Part shown: one piece after another, positions 27,255 to 33,804 of the stretch
Numbering within the stretch: the first letter of the stretch is position 1
How the letters are laid out: each line of letters begins with the position of its first letter
Assembly: GCA_030145205.1 (NCBI GenBank)
Contig: JAQYVZ010000001.1
Location: 62,001 to 126,000, forward strand
Direction of reading: 5' to 3'
DNA length: 64,000 bases
Origin: Desulfuromonadales bacterium
GTDB taxonomy: Bacteria; Desulfobacterota; Desulfuromonadia; Desulfuromonadales; BM103
The notes under the pieces: model-generated
Seen by the model: the letters and a program-made list of their open reading frames with translations, nothing else
Told to the model about the DNA's origin: nothing
The model's database searches: none
Made by a program: the position numbers and the translations under genes

Positions 27255-28301
27255 TCAGGACTCGGCCGGTGTCGCCGGCGCGGCGCCACGGGCCCAGAGA
27301 TGCTGACCGAATTTGCGATAGCCGCGAACGTTGTACATCCGCATATCCTCCCCGGGGGACAATGCCATCACTTCCCCATTGAGCAGCGGCTGAAGGTACT
27401 TGGCCAGTACGGCGCCACCGCCACCAGTAATCACCATGGCGTCGATATCCCAATCATCAACCCAGAGGCGATCCACTTCGTTGGCAACTGTCGTGGCCAA
27501 CTGGCCGAACACCTGGTCGGTCAGAGACTTCAGGTCATAGACCTTACCACGGATCTTGATACTGCCCCGGTCTATCGCCTCATACAAACGATAAAGCTCG
27601 ACGTTGACGCCACTGTTTTCACGGAGCTTCGTGGAAATCACGTTGAATGCGCGGGCGATCCCGGAATCGGTGGTACGACTGCCCCGCTCCGAGTAGCGCA
27701 TTTTGTCTGAAATGGTGTAGTCGCTCGTGCGGAAGCCGACATCAATCAGCCCGATTTTTTCGCGAACCAGACGTTTGTCGCCCATTTCACCAAGATCGTT
27801 GAGCATCAGGTTGAACAGGGAGCCGAACGGCTGTGGAATCACGCGTACCTTGTTGATGCTGACCGATTTCTCATCGCGCCGACCATCAGCATCCACCAGG
27901 GTCACCTTGTGTTCACCGACCAGCAGCTTGGCCAACTCGTCCTTATGCTTGCGGTAGGAACCGATCGGCAGGCCGGTGACCAGATTAATCGGCACAAACC
28001 CCTTGACCATGCGGGCGGCGGCCGACAGGGCCAGCACCTTGGCAAATTTGCCGATGAACTGTTCCTGATCGAGCGTGAAGAAGCGTACGTTGCTCTGCCG
28101 CTCGGCCAGTTCACCGACAAAATAGGACTTGCCGTCCACCTCGACCTGCAAATGCTCGTCATCGTGATCAGGAGCAGCCAGCATCTCCTCACGAAACTGG
28201 ATATCCGTTGATTCGCCGAGGACTGATTTGAAAACCAGATCCTGCCCACCACCAGTTGCCTTGGTGAACCCAAAGCCTATGTCAATTCCAAGAATTTCCA
28301 C
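27255..28301 (-). CDS. ParM/StbA-like actin-family ATPase
   Basis: A 348-residue protein of the actin/Hsp70 fold. The phosphate-1 loop DIGFGFTK is at 7-14, a phosphate-2 element is KIGLIDVGFRTSDYTI, and the adenosine motif is MVITGGGGAVLAKYL. This pattern matches ParM/StbA and archaeal-type actins rather than MreB, FtsA or PilM. The start is GTG at 28301, set by AAGGAGG five bases upstream; earlier in-frame codons overlap the ribosome site. No ParR or centromere repeat is visible beside it, so a plasmid-partition role is not supported. A filament function in the cell is possible. Confidence 0.8.
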   Translation of the reverse strand: MEILGIDIGFGFTKATGGGQDLVFKSVLGESTDIQFREEMLAAPDHDDEHLQVEVDGKSYFVGELAERQSNVRFFTLDQEQFIGKFAKVLALSAAARMVKGFVPINLVTGLPIGSYRKHKDELAKLLVGEHKVTLVDADGRRDEKSVSINKVRVIPQPFGSLFNLMLNDLGEMGDKRLVREKIGLIDVGFRTSDYTISDKMRYSERGSRTTDSGIARAFNVISTKLRENSGVNVELYRLYEAIDRGSIKIRGKVYDLKSLTDQVFGQLATTVANEVDRLWVDDWDIDAMVITGGGGAVLAKYLQPLLNGEVMALSPGEDMRMYNVRGYRKFGQHLWARGAAPATPAES

Positions 28302-28492
28302 GCACGCCTCCTTCAGCCGGTCTACGGTCAATGAGCTGCCATCACGGCAACACGACCACGCTTCAGCTGTTAACTATAGGGAATCGCAGGAAACGATGCA
28401 AGGGTAATCAAAGGGTTCCGAGACAAAGCGAGACGTGTGGGCTCATCATCGACAAACCACAGGCGGAGACAATCGTCGTGGGTGGCCTGCGC

Positions 28493-29143
28493 TCAGTTGC
28501 CCTTGCGAATGAAAATTTCCCGCGCCAGATCTTCATCCACGGCAAATTCGGAGTTGCCGACCTTAAAGATATACGAAGGATACACACGGATCAGCAGCAG
28601 ATCACTGCCTGGCAGCACACCCATACTCATCAATTTCTGCATCTTGCGGACATCGGTGGCGGAAAGATAGGCAATCTCTCCCCCCTCTCCCGGCTTCAGT
28701 TCGGTCAGGGCCACAACACCGACATCTCCTGTGGCGCGCGCCTCTTCACAACAGGTTCCGGGCGGGATCGGGTTGCCATGTGGGCAGGTGGTCGGATGAT
28801 TGAGCAGGGTGCAGATCTTGGTATCGACACCGTGGCGCAGAAGATGTTCCAACTCGCAGGCCCGCTCGTTGCCGGAATCCCCCTTGATATCGAGGACATC
28901 CATCATCAAGCGCTCCGAAAGTCGATGCCGACGGACTGTCATACGGGCTTCGTCCCGGCCTTCCTTGCGCAAGTGAACCCGCTCACCGTGCACTTCAACA
29001 TAGGCCAGTCCCAGCAATTCGGCAAGGCCCTCATCCCCTTTGCGGATGCCAAGGTTTTCAAACAGCACAGCATTCTCGCCACGCTCTTCAGTGGCGATCC
29101 AGAGAACTTCGAGAATTTCTTCAGCGGCATCTGACACGCGCAT
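28493..29143 (-). CDS. DtxR/MntR-family metal-dependent regulator with FeoA-like domain
   Basis: A 216-residue regulator. A winged-helix N-terminus (about 1-65) precedes the dimerisation domain, with VRRHRLSERLMMDVL, CELEHLL and HPTTCPHGNPIP, all typical metal-site elements of DtxR/IdeR. The C-terminal 75 residues (GGEIAYLSATDVRKMQKLMSMG and on) form an SH3-like FeoA domain. It is the last gene of the fur-feoB operon, and no separate feoA gene is seen. AAGGAG precedes its ATG and overlaps the end of the small Cys-rich gene. It probably senses Fe(II) or Mn(II). Targets are not visible. Confidence 0.88.
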   Translation of the reverse strand: MRVSDAAEEILEVLWIATEERGENAVLFENLGIRKGDEGLAELLGLAYVEVHGERVHLRKEGRDEARMTVRRHRLSERLMMDVLDIKGDSGNERACELEHLLRHGVDTKICTLLNHPTTCPHGNPIPPGTCCEEARATGDVGVVALTELKPGEGGEIAYLSATDVRKMQKLMSMGVLPGSDLLLIRVYPSYIFKVGNSEFAVDEDLAREIFIRKGN

Positions 29144-29146
29144 CGG

Positions 29147-29320
29147 CTACTCCTTGCTCTTGTCTTTCTTCAAAATTTTATCAAGATATTCGGGAATCAG
29201 GGGATTTTCCTGTCCACAATACGGGCAATGAATTTTCCTGCATCCGCCGATACAGGCACCACAGGCCTGTTCGCGGATCATCTTCAAATCCAGTTCATGT
29301 TCACAAAAGGTGCATTTCAT
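29147..29320 (-). CDS. Small Cys-rich zinc-ribbon-like protein in the feo operon
   Basis: A 57-residue protein. It begins MKCTFCEHELDLKMIREQAC and has seven cysteines in CTFC (3-6), CGACIGGC (20-27) and CPYC (32-35), followed by a Lys-rich end. The arrangement suggests a zinc or iron-sulfur knuckle. Its ATG overlaps the feoB TGA (ATGA), and its stop lies three bases before the DtxR-like ATG, so it is translationally linked to both. Cys-rich small proteins such as FeoC and FeoB-associated proteins accompany feoB in other phyla; this one may act likewise, but it does not match FeoC by eye. Function is unknown. Confidence 0.8.
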   Translation of the reverse strand: MKCTFCEHELDLKMIREQACGACIGGCRKIHCPYCGQENPLIPEYLDKILKKDKSKE

Positions 29321-31269
29321 GCCAGGAATCCTGTGGCTAACAGAAACTTGTTCAACAGCCAGCCAACTGCGAAGGCCAAACCGGTCACCATGAAAAAGAT
29401 GTAGAGTGATACTTTCCAGCCGCGCTCTTTCTTCATAATTAGAAATTGTGCGACGCAGGGCACAAACAGGGTCAAAGTAACAGCGGCAACCGTCAACTGA
29501 ACCGGGTCAAGCACACCGTCTTTCTGCAGATCGTAAAGGCCGGCCGCGCCGAAGTCCCTCCGGAAAAAGCCGAGAATAAATGCGGCTGCAACATCTTTTG
29601 GCAGACCGAGAGCGCCCATTACCGGCTCCATAACCCGTACCAGCCACTCCAACGCACCGGTCAGCTTACCGGCCCAAAGCAGCACCGAGGCAATCATAAA
29701 CAGGGGAAAAATCTCGAGGAAATACCACTGCATCCGGGTCAGGGTTTTCACCAGCACATTACTGATCTGCGGCAGGCGCATCGGCGGCAACTCCATGTAG
29801 AACATGGGCCGCTCACCAGGCATCACCTGGGCGGCGAGAAAACCGACCAGAAGGAACACCAGAACCATACTGAGGATCCAGACCAGCAACGCACCCTGGA
29901 CTGTCGACAGCAGACCGAAAATCACACCCAATTGCGCACTGCAGGGAATCGCCAGAGACAGCAGCAGTGTTGCGATAATCCGCTCCCGCTTGGTCTCCAG
30001 GGTCCGTGTTACCACCGTCGCCATGGTATCGCAGCCGAAACCGAGGACCATCGGGATCACGGCCCTGCCGTTCAGACCGATCTTTTTGAACACCCGGTCG
30101 ACCAGCATAGCCAGTCGCGGGAAATAGCCGCTGTCCTCAATTGCGGCAAAAGCAATAAAGAAGGCCCCGACAATCGGCAGGACGATCGCAACTGCGTAGC
30201 GAACGCCGAGTGTAAACAGGCCATATTCGCCAACCAGCAACTCCTTCAGCCAGTACCAGGGGATGGTATTTTCCGCCAGAGCAATCGCCCATGGGGTGAG
30301 ACGCTCTTCAAACAACGCCCCTTCCAGGAAATCGACCAGGGTTCCCGCCCCAAAGCCGCCGACAAACTTATAGAGTCCGAAATAGAGGACAATCAGCACC
30401 AGCGGAATCCCAGTAATCGGGTTCATGGTCAACGCAGAGATCCGCTCGCCCAGCACCGGCTTCTGTCCACCATCATACTTCTGCACACCAGCAAGCAGTC
30501 CTTTGCAGATCCGCTTGCGTTCCAGACTGATACGCAGGTGCAGATCGACACGTCGTTCAAACACAATCGTGTTGGCGACCTCTTCGACCCGACTGAAATT
30601 TTCGGATTCCCGGTCACGTAGTCGCTCGACAATCTCCTCGTCACGCTGCAGAAGCAGTAACGCCAGTGCCTTTTGAGTGAGGATATAGTCACCTGCCATC
30701 AACTCGGTGATCCGTGAGACATCTTTCTCGAGATCTGTAGCATAGGCAAAGGTCGAGCGCTGTGGCTGATAATCACACAAAACCTGGCGCAGTTCTGCGA
30801 CACCCCGTTTCCTGCCAACCGCTCCGCCGACAACAGGGATCCCCAACTTTTCACTCAGCAGGTTGATATCGATCTGCAATCCGATACGCTCTGCTTCATC
30901 CATGATGTTAACCAGCAAAACCACCGGCAGACCCGCCTCAATCAATTGCAGTGTCATCGGCAACATACGCTCAAGGTTACGTGCATCAATGACATGCAGA
31001 ACCACGTGCGGGGCTTCCTCAAGCAGAATGCGCCGGGCAACACGCTCCTCCTCAGTAATCGAGAGCAGCGAGTACATACCGGGGGTATCCAAAACCTGGT
31101 AACGCGTTCCTTCAAGACTGCAGGAGCCGCGTGAAACCTCAACCGAGGTCCCCGGGTAATTGGAAACTGTCGTATAACTCCCCGTCAGGGTGTTGAATAC
31201 AACGCTCTTGCCGACATTCGGGTTGCCGACAAGAATAATTTTCTTTTCACTGGACGCACGAGCAGTCAT
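29317..31269 (-). CDS. feoB: Ferrous iron transporter FeoB
   Basis: GTP-gated Fe(II) importer of the inner membrane, with 650 residues. The N-terminal G domain has G1 GNPNVGKS at 15-22, the SNYPGT switch at 36-41, G3 DTPG at 61-64 and G4 NIMD at 121-124 (NKxD-type, with Ile in place of Lys). Gate regions include FGCDTMATVVTRTLETKRER and AIPCSAQLG, followed by VPCVAQFLIMKKERG. ATG at 31269 is used; the longer frame to 31344 would overlap fur. It follows fur and precedes the Cys-rich gene. Expression is probably repressed by Fur when iron is ample. Confidence 0.95.
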   Translation of the reverse strand: MTARASSEKKIILVGNPNVGKSVVFNTLTGSYTTVSNYPGTSVEVSRGSCSLEGTRYQVLDTPGMYSLLSITEEERVARRILLEEAPHVVLHVIDARNLERMLPMTLQLIEAGLPVVLLVNIMDEAERIGLQIDINLLSEKLGIPVVGGAVGRKRGVAELRQVLCDYQPQRSTFAYATDLEKDVSRITELMAGDYILTQKALALLLLQRDEEIVERLRDRESENFSRVEEVANTIVFERRVDLHLRISLERKRICKGLLAGVQKYDGGQKPVLGERISALTMNPITGIPLVLIVLYFGLYKFVGGFGAGTLVDFLEGALFEERLTPWAIALAENTIPWYWLKELLVGEYGLFTLGVRYAVAIVLPIVGAFFIAFAAIEDSGYFPRLAMLVDRVFKKIGLNGRAVIPMVLGFGCDTMATVVTRTLETKRERIIATLLLSLAIPCSAQLGVIFGLLSTVQGALLVWILSMVLVFLLVGFLAAQVMPGERPMFYMELPPMRLPQISNVLVKTLTRMQWYFLEIFPLFMIASVLLWAGKLTGALEWLVRVMEPVMGALGLPKDVAAAFILGFFRRDFGAAGLYDLQKDGVLDPVQLTVAAVTLTLFVPCVAQFLIMKKERGWKVSLYIFFMVTGLAFAVGWLLNKFLLATGFLA

Positions 31270-31319: not shown

Positions 31320-31757
31320 TCAGGATGCCTGGCAGTCGCGACAACGACCAAACAGATTCAACCGGTGACGCTCAATAATAAAACCATGCGCAGCAGCCAC
31401 CTTCTCTTGCAGATGTTCAATTTCAGGGTCTTCAAATTCAACAATTTTGCCGCAGCAGGTGCAAATCAGATGATCGTGATGTTCATCGACCGTTGTCGAT
31501 TCATAACGGGTCTGGCCATCGCCGAACTGCCGCTGTTCGGCGATACCGCACTCCGCAAACAGTTTCAGAGTACGATAAACCGTAGCATAACCGATGCGTG
31601 GATTGTTGCTGCGCACGCGCATGTAGAGGTCTTCTGCTGACAGATGTGCCCCGTCCCGCAGAAATTCATCCAAGATCTCTTCACGCTGGCGCGTCGACTT
31701 TAAGCCCTTTTCGACCAGAAAGGAGCGAAAGTCGTCTTTTATTTTGCTCTTATCCAC
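31320..31757 (-). CDS. fur: Ferric uptake regulator Fur
   Basis: Iron-responsive repressor of 145 residues. The winged-helix domain includes GYATVYRTLKLF at 56-67. The metal-binding part has HHDH at 93-96, and two CxxC pairs, C99-C102 and C139-C142, form the structural zinc site. The start is GTG at 31757 (MDKSKIKDD). It heads the operon with feoB, the Cys-rich gene and the dtxR-like gene. A Fur-box-like site overlaps its own promoter, which indicates autoregulation. Confidence 0.94.
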   Translation of the reverse strand: MDKSKIKDDFRSFLVEKGLKSTRQREEILDEFLRDGAHLSAEDLYMRVRSNNPRIGYATVYRTLKLFAECGIAEQRQFGDGQTRYESTTVDEHHDHLICTCCGKIVEFEDPEIEHLQEKVAAAHGFIIERHRLNLFGRCRDCQAS

Positions 31758-31774
31758 CTGTCATCCGCCCCAAA

Positions 31775-31801
31775 TGAAAATGAGTCTCAATTTAATTCTC
31801 A
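31775..31801 (-). promoter_or_regulatory. Fur box over the fur-feoB promoter
   Basis: On the minus strand TGAGACTCATTTTCA (31775-31789) matches the 7-1-7 Fur consensus TGATAATCATTATCA at 12 of 15 positions. A second, weaker copy TGAGAATTAAATTGA (31787-31801) overlaps it. Both cover the -10 and start region, so Fur with iron would block transcription. Confidence 0.7.
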
Positions 31802-31911: not shown

Positions 31912-32652
31912 TCAAGCCGGGAACCATTGGTACAGGTACATGGTCAAAACCCCCATGTAGTTGAACATCAACATCAGGCCGACAACAATCAGCAAGACAC
32001 CGGTGCCAATCTCGATCATCCGGATATGTTTGCGGAAGCGATTGAACATCACCAGAAACTGTGAAAACAACAAGCCTGAAATTAAGAAAGGGATACCAAG
32101 GCCGATCGAATAGACCGACAAAAGGCCAACACCACGACCAACTTCACCGGACGAAGCAGCGACCATGAGGATAGAGGCCAGAATCGGACCGATACAGGGC
32201 GTCCAACCGGCGGCAAAAGCCAAGCCAACGATAAAAGTACCAATAAAGCCGCTGGGTTTGCGCTGCAGGTGAACCCGCTTTTCCCCCAACAGGATGCCAA
32301 AATGGAACAGGCCAGTCATATGGATACCGAACAGAATAATCAGCAGACCGCCAATCCGCTCAACCCAGATCAAACCTTCGCGCATATGCAGTTGAAACTT
32401 GGACGAAGCAATCCCGGCAATCGCACCCAAAGCAACAAAAACCACGGAGAAACCGAGGATAAAAACGAGCGTGTGAAACAACACCGTCAGCCTGACCTTG
32501 GCGCTGGGGTGGGATTCCTGCAACTGCCCAAATGACAGGCCGGTAATATAGGTCAGGTAAGACGGTATCAGCGGAAGCACACAAGGGGAGAAGAACGAAA
32601 GCAGTCCCGCCGTCAAAGCGATCCAGTATGTCACCTCAGCCCCGTTTGCCAT
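31912..32652 (-). CDS. ccdA: CcdA, thiol-disulfide transfer membrane protein
   Basis: Six-helix membrane protein of 246 residues that passes electrons from cytoplasmic thioredoxin to periplasmic thiol-reducing proteins for cytochrome c maturation. The two redox cysteines are C24 in FFSPCVLPLIPSYL and C153 in GWTPCIGPILAS, each next to prolines as in CcdA/DsbD. Its ATG overlaps the TlpA-like stop (TAATG), so the pair is translated together. In an organism rich in c-type cytochromes this pair probably keeps haem-binding cysteines reduced. Confidence 0.92.
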   Translation of the reverse strand: MANGAEVTYWIALTAGLLSFFSPCVLPLIPSYLTYITGLSFGQLQESHPSAKVRLTVLFHTLVFILGFSVVFVALGAIAGIASSKFQLHMREGLIWVERIGGLLIILFGIHMTGLFHFGILLGEKRVHLQRKPSGFIGTFIVGLAFAAGWTPCIGPILASILMVAASSGEVGRGVGLLSVYSIGLGIPFLISGLLFSQFLVMFNRFRKHIRMIEIGTGVLLIVVGLMLMFNYMGVLTMYLYQWFPA

Positions 32653-33194
32653 TACGCCGGTCCTTTCAGCAACAGTTTAAAATATTCTACCGCGTCCGAA
32701 TGCGCCCAATCAATAGCACCAATCACTCGATCGTCAATCGTGCCGTCTTTACGAATGACAAAAGTCTCCGGAAACTTGTAAACCCCGTAGAGTTTCTGGA
32801 CACTAGCCTTGTCATCAAACAGGATCGGGAAGCTGTGCGGATTCTCCTTCAGAAAAGGAATAACCGTTTGCGGCCCATTCGGTTCAATGTTCACGGCCAA
32901 CAGAGCAAGACCTTCATCCTTCAGCATGCGGTACAGCTTCTCCATGGACGGCATCTCTGCCTTGCATGGAGGGCACCAGGTCGCCCAAAAATTCAGTAAC
33001 ACCACCTTGCCACGATAATCAGACAACGAAACGGACACACCGGACAGATCCCGTAAGGTGAAATCAGGAGCAACCGCATCCAGCTCAACCGAAGCGGCCG
33101 GAGCCGTCTGAGACGGGGAATCACAACCCGGCAAGCAGCTAACACTAAACGCCAGCAATAGCAAGAGCACATATTGATACAAGAATTTTGACAT
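32652..33194 (-). CDS. TlpA/ResA-like thioredoxin lipoprotein
   Basis: Membrane-tethered periplasmic thioredoxin of 180 residues. A signal peptide with lipobox LPGC (Cys24) is followed by a thioredoxin fold with the active site WCPPC at 73-77 and the cis-Pro loop near FPETFV. KVVLLNFWATWC is typical of ResA/TlpA/CcmG. The frame is open upstream to 33614 without a plausible start; ATG at 33194 is chosen because it begins a proper signal peptide and has AAGG 13 bases upstream. Its partner is CcdA. Confidence 0.9.
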   Translation of the reverse strand: MSKFLYQYVLLLLLAFSVSCLPGCDSPSQTAPAASVELDAVAPDFTLRDLSGVSVSLSDYRGKVVLLNFWATWCPPCKAEMPSMEKLYRMLKDEGLALLAVNIEPNGPQTVIPFLKENPHSFPILFDDKASVQKLYGVYKFPETFVIRKDGTIDDRVIGAIDWAHSDAVEYFKLLLKGPA

Positions 33195-33312
33195 AAACAA
33201 TGAAACCTTCAAGCACATAAAGGAAATATTCGAAAAAGTAGATGCTCTATTAACTTTTAACCCTCTGCTATACAAAAAGTCAACTAACGTCCGCCGAGAC
33301 TCCACGAGTCCG

Positions 33313-33804
33313 CTAAACCTCCTGTGTGGGCGGCCCTTCCTCAGCATCGACAAAACCCTGGCCACGAGCAACACGGAACACACACTGAAAATGCGCCAGC
33401 GACACGTCATCTTCATCATAAAGGTCAGCGCAGCCATCAAATGACCTCCCGACAGGGCCTGACACCCGGGCTCGAGCGCGAACCAACCCGGCGTGCGCCG
33501 GAGCATGAAACGCCATCTCCAGGTGCGTGGTGGCGAAGCGGGTTCCTTCAGGTAACAGGCTTTTGATCGCCATGGCAACCGCGGTATCCGCCAGGGAAAC
33601 CAGAACCCCGCCATGCATCATACCGCCACCGTTGGCATGCATGACCCGGAAAGGCACGGACAGGACAGCTTCACCTTCGGCCGCGTGCTCGATTGTAAAA
33701 TCAAGCAGATCCTCAAAGGGTGCGGTTTCAATCCATTTTGTCAACGTGAACTGGCTGGTTCCGGCCTGTTTCTCAGTATCCCTGGAGACGAATAACTGTG
33801 CCAT
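33313..33804 (-). CDS. PaaI-type hotdog thioesterase
   Basis: A 163-residue acyl-CoA thioesterase of the hotdog fold. The active-site loop reads NGGGMMHGGVLVSLADTAV (58-76), with HGG at 64-66 and Asp73. The closing strand lies near residues 105-145. ATG at 33804 is fixed by AAAGGAG six bases upstream; the longer frame to 33963 starts in the adjacent regulatory region. It probably hydrolyses medium or aromatic acyl-CoA. It is transcribed away from the AEC transporter gene. Confidence 0.88.
   Translation of the reverse strand: MAQLFVSRDTEKQAGTSQFTLTKWIETAPFEDLLDFTIEHAAEGEAVLSVPFRVMHANGGGMMHGGVLVSLADTAVAMAIKSLLPEGTRFATTHLEMAFHAPAHAGLVRARARVSGPVGRSFDGCADLYDEDDVSLAHFQCVFRVARGQGFVDAEEGPPTQEV

Follow-up and report, generated by a model that had tools for sequence, protein, structure and literature searches.

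What does a protein of 57 residues, seven of them cysteines, do between feoB and a dtxR-like gene? What small cysteine-rich Feo partners are for has yet to be settled (PMC8749426), and the one encoded here is conserved and has no model in the protein-family libraries searched. The lineage in which it occurs also contains Geobacter, a model metal reducer, and the FeoB to which it is tied is FeoB-1; the Geobacter FeoB-1 (GSU1380) clusters apart and is without an assigned substrate (PMC2700814).

A small cysteine-rich gene in a fur-feoB-dtxR operon

The window (i.e. the whole 64,000-nucleotide stretch of DNA analysed) carries the small ORF at 29147..29320 on the minus strand, stop codon included. 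A first-pass annotation had placed it correctly, without giving the strand, and had described it as a cysteine protein coupled to feoB that may bind Fe(II), zinc or a cluster, a description that holds for the type of protein and for the linkage. Translation of 29320..29147 (minus strand) gives MKCTFCEHELDLKMIREQACGACIGGCRKIHCPYCGQENPLIPEYLDKILKKDKSKE (57 aa, followed by the stop), which starts MKCTFCEHELD, has no hydrophobic stretch of membrane-crossing length and agrees with the cysteine spacing that had been read from it: C3 and C6 (CxxC), C20, C23 and C27 (CxxCxxxC) and C32 and C35 (CxxC), with a histidine at position 31.

The gene order on the minus strand is fur, feoB, small ORF and dtxR/FeoA. 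The ferric uptake regulator gene fur (31320..31757, minus strand, 145 aa, GTG start; PF01475, 1e-40) is followed by a feoB of the FeoB-1 type (29317..31269, minus strand, 650 aa from the likely ATG; PF02421, PF07670, PF07664 and TIGR00437, 432 bits); the mechanically called feoB ORF begins at a TTG (31344), and homologues align from approximately residue 20–34 of this longer frame. The feoB stop and the small-ORF start share an ATGA (29317..29320, minus strand), as the first-pass annotation had noted, and the same 4-nt overlap is found in 80/102 homologous loci. Three nucleotides past the small-ORF stop lies the ATG of the dtxR-like gene (28493..29143, minus strand, 216 aa), whose product has a DtxR metal-binding/dimerisation domain (PF02742, 5e-22) and a C-terminal FeoA domain (PF04023, 1e-12), the latter being the sole FeoA-domain match in the organism's own genome. 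Pfam gives these two domains and no N-terminal DNA-binding domain for this protein, the N-terminus of which may be a diverged HTH.

Approximately 17 bases upstream of fur there is a palindromic candidate delta-proteobacterial FUR box (31774..31790; 2 mismatches to WTGAAAATNATTTTCAW). It is the single match at ≤3 mismatches in the 64-kb window, where approximately one match is expected anywhere by chance, so the evidence for it is its place; the consensus and similar positions are described for delta-proteobacteria in PMC545781. Rodionov 2004 gives the feo locus merely as 'feoB1 - R'. Further upstream on the same strand (31912-33614) are a DsbD_TM (CcdA-like) gene and a thioredoxin-like (AhpC-TSA/Redoxin) gene, and at the other end the operon is adjoined, also on the same strand, by a chromosomal gene for an actin-like protein (27255-28331; ALP_N, MreB-like C-terminal domain).

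The small ORF is a real gene under purifying selection, far beyond chance, on account of its homologues in relatives, its low pN/pS and the conservation of all its cysteines. The pN/pS was ~0.17 over 136 pairs of near homologues, which is roughly an upper bound as synonymous sites are saturated. The first-pass annotation had suggested searching small ORFs behind feoB in Desulfuromonadales and had named a lack of cysteine conservation in other feo operons as what would refute it; this refuting outcome did not appear, with all seven cysteines kept in 103/104 distinct members, the exception being one MAG with a glycine at C20.

Distribution and the tie to one FeoB lineage

A scan of genome contigs returned 36 small-ORF homologues, all from Desulfuromonadales-type or unplaced deltaproteobacterial records and all adjoining feoB and/or dtxR wherever the contig extends far enough. 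Among whole genomes, homologues were present in 51/58 relatives, in 172/200 genomes of the class and in 41/394 genomes sampled across the phylum, the weakest few of the 41 being partial and doubtful matches. Most of the loci compared are MAGs. One genome (G001) was considered as lacking the small ORF and rejected as such, its contig ending inside the ORF. A search of plasmids for homologues gave no match. Two genomes (G044 and G078; L152 and L153) carry, in addition to the first module, a second feoB-1/cysteine ORF/dtxR module without fur.

Presence of the small ORF depends on which FeoB precedes it. At the 127 non-redundant FeoB loci where the downstream DNA could be read, it stood behind 69/69 FeoBs with at least 60 % identity to the window FeoB, 14/15 with 50–60 %, 22/32 with 40–50 % and 0/11 below 40 %. 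Three of these loci (L014, L105 and L188) were missed by the motif pattern and counted by eye, and one locus in the top class has the C20→G change and so falls outside the pattern. Because the two highest classes were partly chosen through ORF searches, a search with FeoB only is the fair test: across the 394 genomes, it found 36 places at least 51 % identical over the full length, and the small ORF was present in 34 of the 35 that were readable (G305 was left out, being at a contig edge). On a tree of 83 FeoBs, presence of the small ORF needs 4 changes, versus a mean of 23.5 for shuffled labels (0/500 shuffles were as low), a pattern consistent with a single gain and three losses, in L176, in L203 and in a well-supported 7-row clade. 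Presence thus follows one FeoB lineage, FeoB-1, in cis; the link to feo drawn in the first-pass annotation stands for this lineage and does not extend to feo operons generally. As some fur-feoB-dtxR operons within this FeoB clade (the 7-row clade, L203 and L176) lack the small ORF, it is not indispensable to FeoB-1.

The other FeoBs of the class, 27–34 % identical to the window FeoB, have different partners in the same slot. In G006, a genuine FeoC is encoded 37 nt behind FeoB-2, and FeoC is likewise found behind FeoB-2 in G014 and G028 (L229, L230 and L231), while in G053 (L226) a PF12669-like protein, with matches to PF12669 below the curated cut-off, is encoded 1 nt behind FeoB-2. The organism's own genome has one FeoB and one FeoA domain (inside DtxR), and neither FeoC nor PF12669 was found when looked for there; FeoB-1 seems to be the sole FeoB on which this genome depends.

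Operon context alone does not separate a partner of FeoB from a partner of the adjoining DtxR/FeoA regulator, for which the small protein might serve as a metal donor, co-repressor or anti-repressor. The latter would suit two observations: dtxR/FeoA always comes after the small ORF in near relatives where the DNA is readable, and this DtxR is also absent from 19 of the 21 genomes in which the small ORF scored negative or partial. However, G055 (L150:3058-4211) has kept fur and dtxR/FeoA, ~110 bp apart, and has lost both feoB-1 and the small ORF, and L106, L112 and L115 retain feoB and the small ORF although the DtxR regulatory part is missing, a FeoA-domain protein without that part directly following the small ORF, like a regulator cut down to FeoA (L233-L235). 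Several lineages, moreover, have feoB-dtxR and no small ORF, and it is with feoB that the tight 4-nt overlap occurs, whereas the spacing between small ORF and dtxR varies widely. These loss cases, from few and mostly MAG loci, favour a role on the FeoB/FeoA side over one on the DtxR side, and we regard a DtxR partner as unlikely. At one further locus (L105/L232, G360; L232:3294-5456), the small ORF runs in frame into a FeoA domain and then a porin-like protein, giving a 720-aa open frame that may be a natural fusion or a MAG artefact. Large open frames resembling FeoB fusions were rejected, as FeoB lies in another frame and they are mostly long stop-free frames in GC-rich DNA.

Putative metal sites and proposed function

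As the first-pass annotation had supposed, no described family could be assigned. No model in Pfam, NCBIfam, PHROGs or PADLOC matched the small protein above its cut-off, with zinc-ribbon-like matches below threshold only; searches of the PDB gave nothing usable by sequence and no match at E≤0.001 by fold, and the Kazal inhibitors, CTCF fingers and RING domains among the PDB matches were dismissed as noise from the cysteine pattern. We found no description of the protein in the literature searched, which excludes most subscription journals, and public databases may list it under the name of a hypothetical or zinc-ribbon protein.

Within the family, the CPxC proline is nearly invariant, and the central spacing widens in far members from CxxCx3C to CxxCx5C or CxxxCx5C. 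Position 31 is His in 64/69 near members, Lys or Arg in 10/13 middle members and Cys in 20/22 far members. The interchange of His and Cys suggests that this residue is a metal ligand; the Lys/Arg of the middle group indicates that it is not always one, which would leave the second site just three cysteines there. In the modest AF2 model (pLDDT 77, pTM 0.55), which assigns no sites, two short strands accompany two helices, a short one and one at the C-terminus (residues 43-54). The C-terminal hydrophobic moment exceeds that of shuffled tails at p<0.05 in 55 % of members (p=0.008 for the window protein).

From these patterns we infer a fold with two cysteine sites. C3, C6, C32 and C35 would form a zinc-ribbon-like site, and C20, C23 and C27 together with residue 31 (His or Cys, with Lys/Arg in some members) a second one, holding labile Zn/Fe(II) or an Fe-S cluster; being more variable, the second is proposed as the likelier sensing site.

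Cysteine knuckles of this kind invite two readings in which FeoB is not the target. The protein could be a zinc-ribbon nucleic-acid binder, such as a small transcription factor or an RNA-binding regulator of the feo operon, as its weak motif-level likeness to zinc ribbons and zinc fingers and the basic C-terminal tail of the family (median net charge +3) would allow. Yet every such match is below the curated cut-off and mostly over the CxxC knuckles, the window protein's own tail is net neutral, and the strict cis tie to one FeoB lineage also counts against this reading, which we hold to be decidedly unlikely. Alternatively, the CxxCG ... CPxCG knuckles look like those of rubredoxin, weak PF21349/PF00301 matches occur in far members and rubredoxins are among the sub-threshold PDB matches, which would fit an iron(II)-thiolate or redox protein that donates iron or carries electrons next to FeoB (e.g. 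keeping iron reduced) and does not regulate it. This, too, is improbable in our estimation: the conserved C20, C23 and C27 are foreign to rubredoxin, adding three further invariant cysteines to its single four-cysteine site, no match was above cut-off and the window protein had no match to PF00301 at E≤1.

With moderate confidence, and by analogy, we instead propose that the small protein is a soluble accessory subunit of FeoB-1, the iron(II) importer, and probably assists or regulates it in the way that the unrelated FeoC does in other bacteria. The proposal draws on the tracking of one FeoB lineage, the FeoB tree, the joint loss in G055, the arrangement at L106, L112 and L115 and the 4-nt overlap; on the FeoC and PF12669-like genes in the same slot elsewhere and the lack of either in the own genome; and on the His/Cys interchange at position 31, the C-terminal helix and the precedent of FeoC (PMC8749426 and PMC12288459). 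Metal binding, contact with FeoB and an effect on FeoB-1 are what we infer from these together. Translational coupling would supply the small protein in step with FeoB, and its amphipathic C-terminal helix may anchor it on FeoB-1, at the cytosolic face, or on the adjacent membrane. There, it might couple the cytosolic iron or redox state to the stability or activity of FeoB-1, the job done by FeoC for Salmonella FeoB, with the adjoining DtxR-like protein presumably providing FeoA function through its FeoA domain.

Comparison with known Feo components and zinc ribbons

FeoC (PF09012), known from gamma-proteobacteria, is likewise a small soluble cysteine-containing protein encoded behind feoB, and elsewhere it has been shown to act on FeoB. 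In Salmonella, it shields FeoB from FtsH, and at high oxygen Lon removes it (PMC12288459); in E. coli, its cysteines are required for full function, although its role has been called elusive and the relatedness of the cysteine-rich elements left undecided (PMC8749426). FeoC differs in being a winged helix with one cysteine motif near the C-terminus, whereas the small protein has cysteine pairs from residue 3 on; in its AF2 model, at a pLDDT of just 77, no winged helix is evident. FeoC also accompanies another FeoB in the same class. The comparison with FeoC made in the first-pass annotation is apt as to position and kind and fails as to homology; real FeoC, in some of the class's genomes, comes behind the other FeoB.

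Proteins of the PF12669 family are similarly small, cysteine-rich and encoded directly behind feoB; they combine a membrane helix at the N-terminus with a short cysteine tail, and the small protein has no such helix. Same slot, similar size and a cysteine-rich motif might still mean a FeoC or PF12669 protein that has diverged too far for the homology to show. We find this very improbable, since the window protein and seven diverse homologues gave no match to either the PF09012 or the PF12669 profile at E≤1, no membrane segment and, in the modest AF2 model, no evident winged helix was seen, and true FeoC and PF12669-like genes stand behind other FeoBs of the same class. An 18-bit blastp match between the small protein and FeoC, from a two-sequence database without composition correction, was rejected as cysteine bias.

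The zinc-ribbon families PF12773, PF13248 and PF07191 have CxxC knuckles and a CPxCG motif in common with the small protein, but score at best 13–23 bits against cut-offs of 25–27 (the double zinc ribbon PF12773 reaches 15.9 bits versus 27.3 with the window protein), and the central CxxC-x(3-5)-C is not defined by their matches. Stenotrophomonas maltophilia likewise has a third Feo component that is specific to its lineage, FeoI (PMC9047314), whose interaction with FeoB has been demonstrated in that species; it differs in being a predicted membrane protein with no identified Fe-S site.

Set against these systems, the best reading of the small protein is a FeoB-1-specific, putative metal-binding accessory that occupies the slot of FeoC without being FeoC, and a new family for annotators to model. 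More tentatively, and at something short of even chances, it may represent a third, independently evolved class of cysteine-rich Feo accessory, specific to the FeoB-1/DtxR-FeoA lineage of Desulfobacterota and gating FeoB-1 from the cytosol in response to iron or redox state, such that each FeoB lineage would have its own non-homologous cysteine-rich partner in the same gene position. Genomes with two FeoBs and two unrelated cysteine partners permit a direct comparison of the small protein with its counterparts behind FeoB-2.
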